Positions 17,728-20,117 of a DNA stretch of 64,000 nt are shown piece by piece. The translations under genes were made by a program, and so were the position numbers. The notes below the pieces were generated by a model. It saw nothing but the letters and a program-made list of their open reading frames with translations. It ran no database searches and had not been told where the DNA came from. The DNA lies in the NCBI RefSeq assembly GCF_023518235.1, contig NZ_CP090423.1:4667001-4731000 (forward strand), given 5' to 3'. This DNA is from Stenotrophomonas maltophilia. Its GTDB lineage: Bacteria > Pseudomonadota > Gammaproteobacteria > Xanthomonadales > Xanthomonadaceae. Every line of letters starts with the position of its first letter. Within the stretch, counting starts at the first letter, position 1.

Positions 17728-19014
17728 TCACCAACCGCCGGGACGCCACTGCAGCTGCGCGTCCCGGGCCAGCAGCCATGCCTGCAAGGGCGCGCTGATG
17801 ACCACGTCGGCGGCGGCCAGCAGTTGTCCGTCCGCAAACAGCAGCGGCAGCTGCGCGCGTCGCCACGGCGCGAGGTGCTCGCGTTGCAGGCAGTCCTTCA
17901 GCGCATGGGCATGCTGGCGGCCGGGCATCAGGATGCGCTCGCCACCCACCCGCGCACGGATCTGCAACGGCTGCTCGAAAGCACTGGCACCCCGCAGGCG
18001 CAGCTGGCCGCCGTCGGGCAGCGGCAATGGCGCGCGGCCATCCCATGTGGCCTGCCAGTCGGCGGGCAGAGCCGGCAGCCGCGCAGGCAGCAGATAGGCA
18101 TGGTCGCGCCATTGCCGGATGGCATGGTCGTGCCAGCGTACCTGTGCCTGACGGTCATTGGCTGCCGGCAGCAGCTGCTCCAGTGCCTGCTGCAGCACCG
18201 TGGCCGGCAGCGGCGGGGCGCCGTGGCCGAGCACCCAGGCGCGCAGCACGCGCGCGGCACGGCCCGGCGAAACCTGGCGCAGCAGTTGCAGCGACAGCAC
18301 GCGTGGTGCGACTTCCAGGTGTGCGATCAGTTCGGCGTCTTCTTCGTCCAGCAGTTCGCGGGTCTGCCGGCAGTGCGTCGCGCTGCCGGCCAATGCCGCA
18401 GCGGCATGCGCCCATCGCTGGCGCAGCAGCGGCAGTACGTGCAGACGCAGGAAGTTGCGATCGGCGTGGTCTTCGCTGTTGCTGGGGTCTTCGATCCAGC
18501 ACAGCGCGTGCTGCCTGGCGTAGTCGAGCAGCGCGCCGCGTGGTGCATGCAGCAACGGGCGCCACAGGCGGTGTGCGCCGAGCTGATTGTGCTCGGCCAT
18601 CGCGGCAAGTCCATCGACGCCGGAACCACGCAGTGCACGCAGCAGGAAGGTCTCGGCCTGGTCGTCCTGGTGCTGTGCCAGCGCCAGTGTTTCGCCGTCG
18701 CGCAGTTCGGCGGCGAACGCGGCGCGCCGTGCCTGGCGCGCCGCGCCTTCCAGGCCGAGGCCAGGGTGCAGATCAACCTGCACGCGGTGCACGGCCAGTT
18801 CCATGCCCAGCGCTGCGCACTGCTGCTGGCAATGCCGCACCCAGTCATCGGCGGCCGGTTGCAGGCCGTGGTGCACGTGCACTGCGCGCAGCGGCGTGGC
18901 AGAGGCCTGGGCGCAGCGCCACAGCCAGTGCAGCAGCACGGTCGAGTCGACACCGCCGCTGTAGCCCACCAGCAGCGGTGCATCCAGCGGAACGAGGGCA
19001 GGGAAGGCGGTCAC
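17728..19014 (-). CDS. tilS: tRNA(Ile)-lysidine synthase
   Basis: About 428 residues. The PP-loop ATPase motif SGGVDST is at residues 19-25, followed by HVHHGL and the TilS-specific DQAETFLLRALRGSGVDGL block, and a C-terminal substrate domain. TilS adds lysine to C34 of tRNA-Ile2 so that it reads AUA, an essential function. The start is set at GTG 19014, since a TATACT box ends seven bases before it; a longer frame from GTG 19056 would run into a repeat element and gains no conserved residues. It is followed by xseB and ispA on the same strand, with a gap of about 36 bases. Confidence 0.9.
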   Translation of the reverse strand: MTAFPALVPLDAPLLVGYSGGVDSTVLLHWLWRCAQASATPLRAVHVHHGLQPAADDWVRHCQQQCAALGMELAVHRVQVDLHPGLGLEGAARQARRAAFAAELRDGETLALAQHQDDQAETFLLRALRGSGVDGLAAMAEHNQLGAHRLWRPLLHAPRGALLDYARQHALCWIEDPSNSEDHADRNFLRLHVLPLLRQRWAHAAAALAGSATHCRQTRELLDEEDAELIAHLEVAPRVLSLQLLRQVSPGRAARVLRAWVLGHGAPPLPATVLQQALEQLLPAANDRQAQVRWHDHAIRQWRDHAYLLPARLPALPADWQATWDGRAPLPLPDGGQLRLRGASAFEQPLQIRARVGGERILMPGRQHAHALKDCLQREHLAPWRRAQLPLLFADGQLLAAADVVISAPLQAWLLARDAQLQWRPGGW

Positions 19015-19032: not shown

Positions 19033-19230
19033 GCTCGGCAGGGCTGCGCCCTGCACCCGCTACGATCCAGAGCAACAGCAACAGCAACAGCAACAGCAGA
19101 AGCTGGTTTCCTGAGGGTAGGCGGTGTGGGTCCGGTTGCGGGGGACGCCGTAAATACGTCCATGTAGGCTCGGTCGCGCCATCCATGGCGCTCACGCCCC
19201 CGCAACCGGACCCACACCGCCTTCGACAGA
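19033..19230 (+). repeat. composite hairpin repeat, copy 1 (about 190 bp)
   Basis: This copy has, in order: a leader hairpin (GGCAGGGCTGCGCCCTGC), a run of AGCAAC hexamers at about 19070-19097, a 26-bp outer arm at 19119-19144, a core of 52 bases, and the perfectly complementary outer arm at 19197-19222, then CTTCGACAG. Inside the core is a small hairpin GCGCCAT-CC-ATGGCGC. Copy 2, in reverse at 19376-19566, has the same parts; the two 60-base stretches spanning the cores align without gaps with 47 identities, and base changes in both stems are compensated. No protein is encoded. Confidence 0.75.
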
Positions 19231-19267
19231 CCCCGCGATCTGTTGGAATGGCATGGGGTAACGGCAT

Positions 19268-19308
19268 GGGGTCAGATCCGTTTTCCGCAGGAAAACGGAT
19301 CTGACCCC
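19268..19308. repeat. GGGGTCAG-type inverted repeat
   Basis: GGGGTCAGATCCGTTTTCC is followed by three bases and its exact complement, a 19-bp perfect stem. A related palindrome bearing GGTCAGAGCCC lies at 53092, so this is a dispersed short repeat. It sits between the two copies of the composite element. Confidence 0.7.
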
Positions 19309-19336
19309 GGGTTCAATTCGATATCTGACAGATACG

Positions 19337-19355
19337 ATCCACGCAAAGCGTGGAT
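19337..19355. repeat. ATCCACGC palindrome
   Basis: ATCCACGC-aaa-GCGTGGAT. The same palindrome with a different loop occurs near 23372 and 36358. Confidence 0.65.
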
Positions 19356-19375
19356 GGTCCAGCCGTCACCGGAAA

Positions 19376-19566
19376 ACTGTCGAAGGTGGGGCGGTGTCGG
19401 ATTGCGGGGTGTCAGCCGCATGGATGCGGCTGCCAAACCTACAAGGACGTACTTGCGGCGTCCCCGCAATCCGACACCGCCCCGCCAAACCCGCAGATAA
19501 TCCGGAGCCGGCTGTTGCTTTTGAGGTTGACGTTGATTCGGCAGGAGCAGGGCGCAGCCCCGCCGA
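19376..19566 (-). repeat. composite hairpin repeat, copy 2 (inverted)
   Basis: Read on the minus strand this repeats the plan of copy 1: TCGGCGGGGCTGCGCC leader, AGCAACAG, outer arm (19462-19483), core with inner hairpin GCCGCATCCATGCGGC, second outer arm (19388-19409) and CTTCGACAG. The outer stem is 22 bp and perfect. With copy 1 it fills most of the 557-base gene-free stretch between the WG-repeat gene and tilS; the rest of that stretch holds two short palindromes. Confidence 0.75.
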
Positions 19567-19571
19567 AAACC

Positions 19572-20117
19572 TTACTTCAGCCTACGACCCGTGCGGTCGA
19601 TGCGGAACCACTCGCCGCCTTCCATCGGTGTATGGCCATCGCCATCCGGCGTGCCGCGACGGCAGCCGTTGCAGACCTCGGCCACGCCGTCGCGGAACGG
19701 CCAGGCGAAATCGAAGGTGCCCGGTACCACCTGACGGAATGTCAGATCGAAGTAGCCCACGCGATTGCCCACGCGCCCGCGCAGCAGGCCTTCCTCCGGC
19801 GTTTCCGGGCCGTTGTCCCAGGTCAGCACCGGCAGGCTGCGGCCGGTGCGGTCGACGTAATGGAAGCCCTGGTCGGCATACACCACGGCCAGGCCGTGGT
19901 CATCAAAGTTCAGGTCCTGCAGTGTGCCCGGCTGGATCTTCGGCCGGTGATCGACCACCTCGCAGTTGGGCAGCGGCCACAAGCCGTGTTCGTCGGTGAG
20001 CAGCTTGCATGCCGGCGCCTGTGCCAGCGCGTTGGCACTGGCCAGCATCCCGAACAGGGCCAGCGACCGCGCGAAGCGGCCGCCGGCGCGGGCAGGGCGG
20101 GCCTGCCGCAGGGTCAC
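19572..20117 (-). CDS. WG-repeat-like secreted protein coupled to phosphatase
   Basis: A protein of about 181 residues with a signal peptide (FARSLALFGMLASANALAQA) and a body of WG/KWG-like repeats: segments such as LAVVYADQGFHYVDRTGRSLPV, GLLRGRVGNRVGYFDLTFRQVV and the closing GEWFRIDRTGRRLK. Such repeats usually form beta-propeller-like binding folds; no enzyme motif is seen. The GTG start at 20117 overlaps the TGA of the phosphatase gene (GTGA), so its translation probably depends on that of the phosphatase. Three cysteines (in the PACKLL and EVCNGC segments) could form disulfides. Its role is unknown; a periplasmic or surface partner of the phosphatase is an inference from the overlap. 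Confidence 0.65.
   Translation of the reverse strand: MTLRQARPARAGGRFARSLALFGMLASANALAQAPACKLLTDEHGLWPLPNCEVVDHRPKIQPGTLQDLNFDDHGLAVVYADQGFHYVDRTGRSLPVLTWDNGPETPEEGLLRGRVGNRVGYFDLTFRQVVPGTFDFAWPFRDGVAEVCNGCRRGTPDGDGHTPMEGGEWFRIDRTGRRLK

Follow-up and report, generated by a model that had tools for sequence, protein, structure and literature searches.

Among described repeats, the closest counterpart of the element analysed here is YPAL/RU-2, which has been reported from Yersinia and Erwinia only (PMC2229807; PMC2759123). As the family described below, YPAL/RU-2 is intergenic and multicopy and forms a stable stem-loop, and its location close 3' of stop codons is equally found for the copies in the Stenotrophomonas maltophilia genome studied here. 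According to a review, YPAL moves and thereby duplicates 3-26 bp of its target, and it may influence the stability of the upstream transcript (PMC2229807). The RNA Ysr224, on the other hand, has several copies in Yersinia ruckeri whose expression differs (PMC12112432), and it ranks among the 20 sRNAs most often annotated (PMC9029176). Another group of intergenic palindromic repeats, the GTAG REPs, comprises palindromes of 20-40 bp that carry a GTAG tag and form a single super-family (PMC3733652).

A second line of comparison is offered by RNAs that bind the regulator RsmA/CsrA. CsrB/RsmB, RsmX/Y/Z and RsmU each possess several GGA hairpin loops for RsmA/CsrA binding. In Xanthomonas, no homologue of CsrB or RsmX/Y/Z has been recognized in any sequenced member, while the 3'-UTR-derived RsmA-binding RNA RsmU is confined to this genus; alteration of all four GGA motifs of RsmU abolished neither RsmA binding nor the phenotype (PMC7694677). 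At the level of the individual hairpin, RsmE contacts the A and the GGA of an ANGGAN hexaloop with the N positions variable, the SELEX consensus reads RUACARGGAUGU with loops of six nucleotides in 44 of 55 ligands, and a CsrA dimer can span two sites 10-63 nt apart (PMC7652899).

The window, a 64,000-nt stretch of an S. maltophilia contig, harbours two facing hairpins between tilS, which encodes Pfam TilS domains (17728-19014, minus strand), and a WG-repeat gene (19572-20117, minus strand). A previous sequence-only reading had described two facing copies of a composite repeat with a common leader, an AGCAAC-type tract and arms in opposite orientation, a gapless alignment of 60 bases with 47 identities, an inner stem changed from GCGCC/GGCGC to GCCGC/GCGGC and perfect outer stems of 26 against 22 bp. 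All of these features were reproduced (Table 1), with the 60-base alignment (19141-19200 on the plus against 19406-19465 on the minus strand) the best among the start pairs scanned. In the following, the two strands of each hairpin are referred to as the TCC strand and the GGA strand, the latter running opposite to the leader direction.

Table 1. Positions of the two facing copies and their accompanying features in the window
Feature	Position	Strand	Remark
Leader hairpin adjoining copy 1 (GCAGGGCTGCGCCCTGC)	19038-19054	+	
Copy 1, AGCAAC-type tract	19071-19099	+	
Copy 1, whole hairpin (TCC strand on +)	19119-19222	+	arms 19119-19144 / 19197-19222, 26/26 paired
Copy 1, conserved core of 52 nt with two hairpins, a bulge of 5 nt and the junction	19145-19196	+	
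Copy 1, loop 1, ATGGAC (ANGGAN hexaloop)	19158-19163	-	
Copy 1, loop 2, ATGGAT (ANGGAN hexaloop)	19181-19186	-	
Small stem CGACAG/CTGTTG 3' of copy 1, within the conserved CTTCGACAG end	19224-19245	+	
Copy 2, whole hairpin (TCC strand on -)	19385-19486	-	outer stem: 22 perfect pairs, C.A, 2 pairs
Copy 2, conserved 52-nt core	19410-19461	-	
Copy 2, loop 2, ATGGAT (ANGGAN hexaloop)	19420-19425	+	
Copy 2, loop 1, AAGGAC (ANGGAN hexaloop)	19443-19448	+	
Copy 2, tract (reverse complement of the AGCAAC/GTCAAC type)	19511-19538	-	
Leader hairpin region adjoining copy 2	19541-19566	-	inverted match to 19035-19060, 88%

Single-strand folding of the window copies gave z-scores of -8.9 to -9.8 in three folds, with none of 200 shuffled sequences as stable; because of these scores and of 116 strong covariance-model copies in the same genome, the fold in the window is not a product of chance. 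The covariance model in question (R1) matches copy 1 at contig positions 4686118-4686230 (19118-19230 of the window) and copy 2 at 4686376-4686488 (19376-19488). Two additional palindromes are located between the copies, one at 19268-19308 (GGGGTCAGATCCGTTTTCC and its inverse), the other, REP-like, at about 19331-19356 (GATCCACGC...GCGTGGAT), and palindromes like these are present beside many copies of the family. The GTAG REPs of Stenotrophomonas go by the name of SMAG. The family element itself, with about 104 bp and a three-way junction, is different in size from the 20-40 bp GTAG REPs. The (AGCAAC)n tract at 19071-19099 is a series of A-R-N triplets; it is triplets of this type that Hfq binds with its distal face.

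While the sequence-only reading had considered the family as unknown, a published family with the same core does exist. The RU-2 sequence as printed (PMC2759123, Table 1b) includes ACGCCGTAAATACATCCATGTAGGCTCG..., and its hexaloops read AAGGAT and ATGGAT in the printed orientation; its core is identical at 50 of 52 positions to a core of Yersinia similis (L289). Compared with the window copies, this RU-2/L289 core displays the same layout, with 32 of 52 ungapped identities to copy 1 and 29 of 52 to copy 2 and with loop 2 offset by one base. Judged by this core, YPAL/RU-2 of Yersinia is a relative, and the family is in part already known under a Yersinia name. The remainder of the unit differs: YPAL/RU-2 is a unit of approximately 168 bp shared throughout, whereas the window hairpins of approximately 104 bp have differing arms and the core alone in common; the outer stem of YPAL/RU-2 is unrelated in sequence to the window copies, and the accessible text of its descriptions mentions no facing-pair format (PMC2229807; PMC2759123). 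Equally, the Rfam model RF02770 (Ysr224), which represents the TCC strand, overlaps the core in Y. similis (L289, 126.5 bits) and Sodalis (L283, 82.9 bits) above its gathering score of 70, so that many annotated Ysr224 genes may be copies of the repeat. The window copies reach 26.2 and 24.0 bits with RF02770 and so fall short of its gathering score, and an Rfam scan of the entire 64-kb window recovered no family at gathering score. At low threshold, 33 Rfam matches near the facing pair consist mostly of eukaryotic microRNA hairpins, with the two weak Ysr224 matches as real kin. Two other RNAs were considered: for Ysr170, the part of the publication available provides no link to the element (PMC5193452), and RsmU is an improbable member in view of its published restriction to Xanthomonas (PMC7694677). 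Readings as an integron attC site or as a retron were weighed too and were not adopted.

In its own genome the family comprises at least 116 copies at more than 60 bits with R1, a model derived from 23 copies; the number is a lower bound, since 150 of 5269 candidates were scored, and is what remains of 147 matches once 23 shadows on the opposite strand (41-55 bits) and 8 rows of weak score (28-38 bits) are set aside. BLAST with copy 1 detected 98 matches in this genome with both strands of the palindrome counted. Many own-genome copies likewise terminate in CTTCGACAG or in something close to it. The facing arrangement of the window is the rule, as 43 of 44 neighbouring pairs of two strong copies are facing; with weak partners included, some of the 8 weak rows among them, 48 pairs are found within 1 kb, 47 of them facing and 44 with a gap of 104-207 bp. 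At the loci retrieved by family, named-collection, class and phylum searches, which include some Stenotrophomonas, neighbours less than 600 bp apart are facing in 24 of 38 cases, tandem in 13, of which a single array accounts for 5, and divergent in one. Partners in the own genome do not share their arms: an outer arm common to both at 80% identity or more was observed in none of 44 strong pairs against 5.9 (sd 2.1) expected, with 1 of 2000 shuffles equal. Such unlike outer stems would likely let each hairpin fold on itself and avoid a long inverted repeat. As an observation apart, one contig of the same class (L372, 1512-2700, genome G815) carries six head-to-tail copies with a period of about 227 bp and GTAGGAGCGGCTTCAGCCGCGA-type palindromes in between, an array that resembles a multi-site CsrB-like array.

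All 116 own-genome copies can be read in one 52-nt core register with two hairpins on a three-way junction; the register was set by a fixed-length pattern and fits because the columns line up across the 116 copies. Hairpin 1 consists of pairs 2-24, 3-23 and 4-22, a 5-nt bulge, pairs 10-21, 11-20 and 12-19 and a hexaloop, hairpin 2 of pairs 26-51 and 27-50, pairs 29-48 to 35-42 and a second hexaloop. Alternative pairs occur in these 116 copies: pair 10-21 is never broken, with CG in 65 copies and TA in the other 51, while there is GC in 74 and CG in 41 at 34-43, and CG in 104 and TA in 11 at 4-22; unpaired exceptions (CT in 37 copies at 30-47, TC in 33 at 29-48) belong to one subtype. The outer stem is usually 22-28 bp long (at least 22 bp in 109 of 116 copies) and highly variable in sequence yet paired, with 97 distinct arm pairs in the own genome when three copies with gapped arms are excluded from the tally. 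Unpaired nucleotides conserved in the core are an AC linker, G..A of the bulge and one T.

The sequence-only reading turned on stems being kept in other copies, and they are, with 91.0% of pair cells paired in 61 diverse sequences (alignment A2). Its conclusion that compensated change between the two copies indicates selection on folding stands at the level of the family, where 494 cells of A2 are changed on both sides compared with 155 (sd 11) after shuffling and at most 156 with a slid partner; the compensated difference between paralogous copies, in contrast, is partly due to replacement of whole hairpins and to that extent did not arise by stepwise substitution. The number of further pair types in A2 shows no excess (63 versus 70 in shuffles). 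Ranked by mutual information, the proposed pairs come first, and an additional pair 6-9 emerges within the bulge, TA in 200 and CG in 38 of 238 unique cores without exception (those 328 of 387 segments that are in the standard loop-2 register). Selection for single-strand folding of the family is thus supported, and the family is a real and widely conserved structured element.

The best clue to function, identified post hoc and thus with some hindsight, comes from the loops, both of which on the GGA strand are C-ANGGAN-G hexaloops. In loop 1 of the 116 own copies, the A is present in 116, the two G in 113 and 114 and the final A in 116, with both N positions free and the C-G closing pair present in all 116. 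Conservation of loop 1 is claimed from these own copies only, because the pattern of the wider search fixes most of this loop. Loop 2 reads CATCCATG, the complement of AUGGAU, in 112 of 116 own copies; among 166 unique cores found by the named-collection, class and phylum searches, Stenotrophomonas being represented in this set, 120 have a strict ANGGAN hexaloop, 26 a GGA in another loop, 13 no GGA and 7 no hairpin, whereby loop 2 was left free in the named-collection pattern and later loci were obtained with model R2, which includes loop 2. Loop 1 has a TAC subtype with the sequence UACANGGACGUA, and some distant copies exhibit pentaloops that lack the A. The two GGA are 20 nt apart in all 116 cores, inside the bridging range of 10-63 nt. 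Compared on sequence, the loop pattern is that of the published RsmA/CsrA hairpin signature, with the difference that SELEX ligands mostly contain four or fewer contiguous pairs and hairpin 2 of the family is longer (PMC7652899). The loops equally resemble those of CsrB/RsmB, RsmX/Y/Z and RsmU; there, however, one or few dedicated RNAs are involved, while the family consists of short elements, more than a hundred in number and scattered over the genome, each with two predicted loops. As far as our searches go, with most subscription journals outside their reach, no literature joins YPAL or the repeat with CsrA, and within the literature searched the loop pattern and its reading as an RsmA/CsrA site are new.

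Which strand would act as RNA is a question on which the evidence is overall mixed; the GGA strand is favoured, and we consider it about twice as credible as the TCC strand. On the TCC strand of unique outer arms, counted where 14 or more of 20 pairs are Watson-Crick, 193 A.C-type cells are met by 38 of G.T type, with the same direction in the own genome (42:12), the genus (9:3, alone not significant), the family (16:1) and the other copies (126:22). Because an A.C on the TCC strand corresponds to a G.U on the GGA strand, this asymmetry favours the GGA strand. Equally in favour of the GGA strand, the covarying bulge reads CUUG or UUYA there. In RNA, CUUG is a known motif in which C pairs with G and two bases are left to form the loop. 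The expectation that a G.U asymmetry would also be found in the core stems failed, as the ratio is 21:18, and the own genome alone leans in the opposite direction (5 versus 12). Folding predictions give a mean probability of hairpin 1 of 0.51 on the TCC versus 0.20 on the GGA strand for own copies and of 0.56 versus 0.28 elsewhere, and the minimum-energy fold of the GGA strand of copy 1 mispairs the core. The GGA triplets of the GGA strand are unpaired with probabilities of 0.75 and 0.88 in own and 0.70 and 0.95 in other copies, although the mean probability of hairpin 1 there is only 0.20-0.28. Gene orientation indicates no strand preference, with 39 versus 36 among the 67 intergenic copies that remained after 42 of 109 were excluded as placed within ORFs by a crude ORF caller.

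Taken together, the dispersed intergenic hairpins might serve, if their GGA strand is transcribed, as decoys or landing pads for RsmA/CsrA, a reading to which we assign nearly even chances. Both the binding of RsmA/CsrA and the transcription of the copies are parts that we infer. The two ANGGAN hexaloops are predicted to clamp both RNA-binding faces of one RsmA/CsrA dimer, with the variable GC-rich outer stem possibly protecting and presenting the three-way junction. Transcription could occur by read-through from flanking genes, and since a facing pair has one GGA-type copy on each strand, read-through from either side would deliver one GGA copy together with one TCC copy. Many weakly expressed copies might jointly titrate free RsmA as CsrB/RsmZ do within one molecule; as an alternative to titration, the element might mark the flanking mRNA. 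The conserved unpaired core nucleotides are left unexplained by the RsmA reading and count against it. Furthermore, the GGA changes in RsmU spared binding (PMC7694677), so that RsmA recognition in Xanthomonas involves more than GGA loops. A more far-reaching version, which we put forward only tentatively and with odds clearly short of even, sees pan-gammaproteobacterial RsmA/CsrA clamps, present in tens to more than 100 per genome, that titrate the regulator via read-through and in Stenotrophomonas and Xanthomonas, from which no CsrB/RsmY-type RNA is known, stand in for such RNAs, with the facing pairs making them effective irrespective of the direction of transcription. The family in any case unites YPAL, the much-annotated but unexplained Ysr224 and repeats of Stenotrophomonas, Xanthomonas, Marinobacter, Rheinheimera and others, with RsmA/CsrA as a specific candidate ligand. 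If the reading is true, the repeat load would affect free RsmA/CsrA and hence its regulons, and RsmA buffering in Xanthomonadaceae without known antagonist RNAs would be accounted for.

The distribution of the element is broad within Gammaproteobacteria. R1 detects it in 28 of 37 genus genomes, the own included, in 32 of 61 relatives overall and in 53 of 198 family genomes from 16 of 54 genera, and the core model R2 in 73 of 369 class genomes, which cover 64 of 271 genera sampled in Gammaproteobacteria; all of the 31 positive genomes among 398 of the phylum are listed as of the same class or closer. Among the matches listed, carriers of the core pattern include Xanthomonas, Marinobacter, Rheinheimera, Shewanella, Alteromonas, Methylomonas, Alcanivorax, Sodalis and Y. 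similis, and records labelled S. maltophilia hold near-identical elements. The named-collection search with the core pattern yielded at least 118 loci, 80 of which (88 matches) entered the pentaloop survey and all 118 the later analyses. At an E value of 1e-5, with 150 candidates scored and opposite-strand shadows included, 70 matches are counted in Y. similis, at least 149 in Xanthomonas hortorum, 100 in a Marinobacter MAG, 29 in Shewanella, 47 in Rheinheimera hassiensis and 109 in S. maltophilia D457. The search of plasmids and phages gave no match. Two IMG/VR contigs (L385, L386) each contain one core.

The candidate ligand is commonly present along with the element. The own genome possesses one csrA gene, and a CsrA match was obtained in 313 of 369 class genomes and in 68 of 73 element carriers, the five others being G283, G343, G374 and G615, which are 67-88% complete, and G469, which is 98% complete. 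Among good-quality genomes, CsrA is found in 60 of 61 carriers versus 220 of 253 non-carriers (Fisher p 0.006, cross-table by eye). This weak association fits the RsmA reading and could equally reflect reduced genomes without both. Genome G469 has nine element matches and no CsrA match, which can be a gap or a counterexample.

The most serious competitor, although rather unlikely as a full explanation, is a non-autonomous YPAL-like mobile element, whose folded core, as single-stranded DNA or RNA, would be the recognition site of an enzyme with any effect on RsmA incidental. Dispersal in multiple intergenic copies, the recurrence of arm types at many loci, with one type in 34 of 116 copies, the mobility and target duplications described for YPAL (PMC2229807) and the conserved unpaired nucleotides at junction and bulge all are in line with such an element. 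So is part of the history of the locus. Among the 30 syntenic genus loci, the best from 50 genomes with a match, no element is present in L190 and L191, and 9 of 37 genus genomes lack any match; L177 equally has none, at a contig end, and one copy or a fragment remains at seven loci, some cut by a contig end. Both copies, on the other hand, persist at 20 of the 30, which speaks against a mobile element. At orthologous loci, copy 1 falls into one arm class and copy 2 into three outer-stem classes in which core and both arms switch together, the classes being based on the copies recovered by an arm-class pattern that missed some, the window copy 2 among them; whole hairpins have therefore been exchanged between loci. 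Mobility alone predicts neither loops in which A and GGA are kept and variation is confined to precisely the two N positions, nor the asymmetry of wobble pairs on one strand at 193:38. An origin of the family from a mobile element is likely nevertheless, and compatible with the RsmA reading.

The position of the copies relative to genes brings up another explanation, which we hold to be improbable, namely a structural end-of-transcript element, an mRNA stabiliser or attenuator of REP/BIME-like type for which the stable hairpin alone matters. The copies are intergenic, with no overlap of more than 40 nt with a called gene at 72 own-genome places. Genes called by a crude finder have their end facing the copy on 70 of 115 scorable leader sides, 68 of these at a distance of 37-132 nt (median 81), and point away from the copy on 45; the 43 facing pairs are flanked by convergent genes in 16, codirectional genes in 20 and divergent genes in 7 cases. 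Such positions, the very stable folds and the possible effect of YPAL on the stability of upstream transcripts (PMC2229807) would suit an element at transcript ends. A stem of 22-28 bp would, however, suffice for this task, and the core in a single register and the near-invariant loops across Gammaproteobacteria would be left without explanation.

Of similarly low probability is the proposal that the functional RNA is the TCC strand, whose NUCCNU loops would pair with targets that contain GGA or, within a facing pair, with the GGA copy opposite. Hairpin 1 is predicted to fold better on this strand, its bulge there is GNRA-like (GYRAR), Ysr224 has been modelled on this strand in Rfam, and it is the sense strand for leader-side genes that end towards the copy and, in the own genome, for the gene end nearest to the copy. 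Outer-stem G.U pairs are, on the contrary, rarer on the TCC strand (38 versus 193), and to our knowledge there is no known binder of NUCCNU loops. Lastly, that template-switch correction of quasi-palindromes keeps the stems perfect without selection on folding would fit with both arms switching together at orthologous loci, but is very improbable in view of the strand-asymmetric wobble, the near-invariant loops, the one core register and the covarying pair within the bulge.

A minor observation concerns the length of the element. At L167 (978-1170) and L174 (2286-2472), copies are about 70-80 bp longer, and in L167 the surplus sits within the first hairpin.
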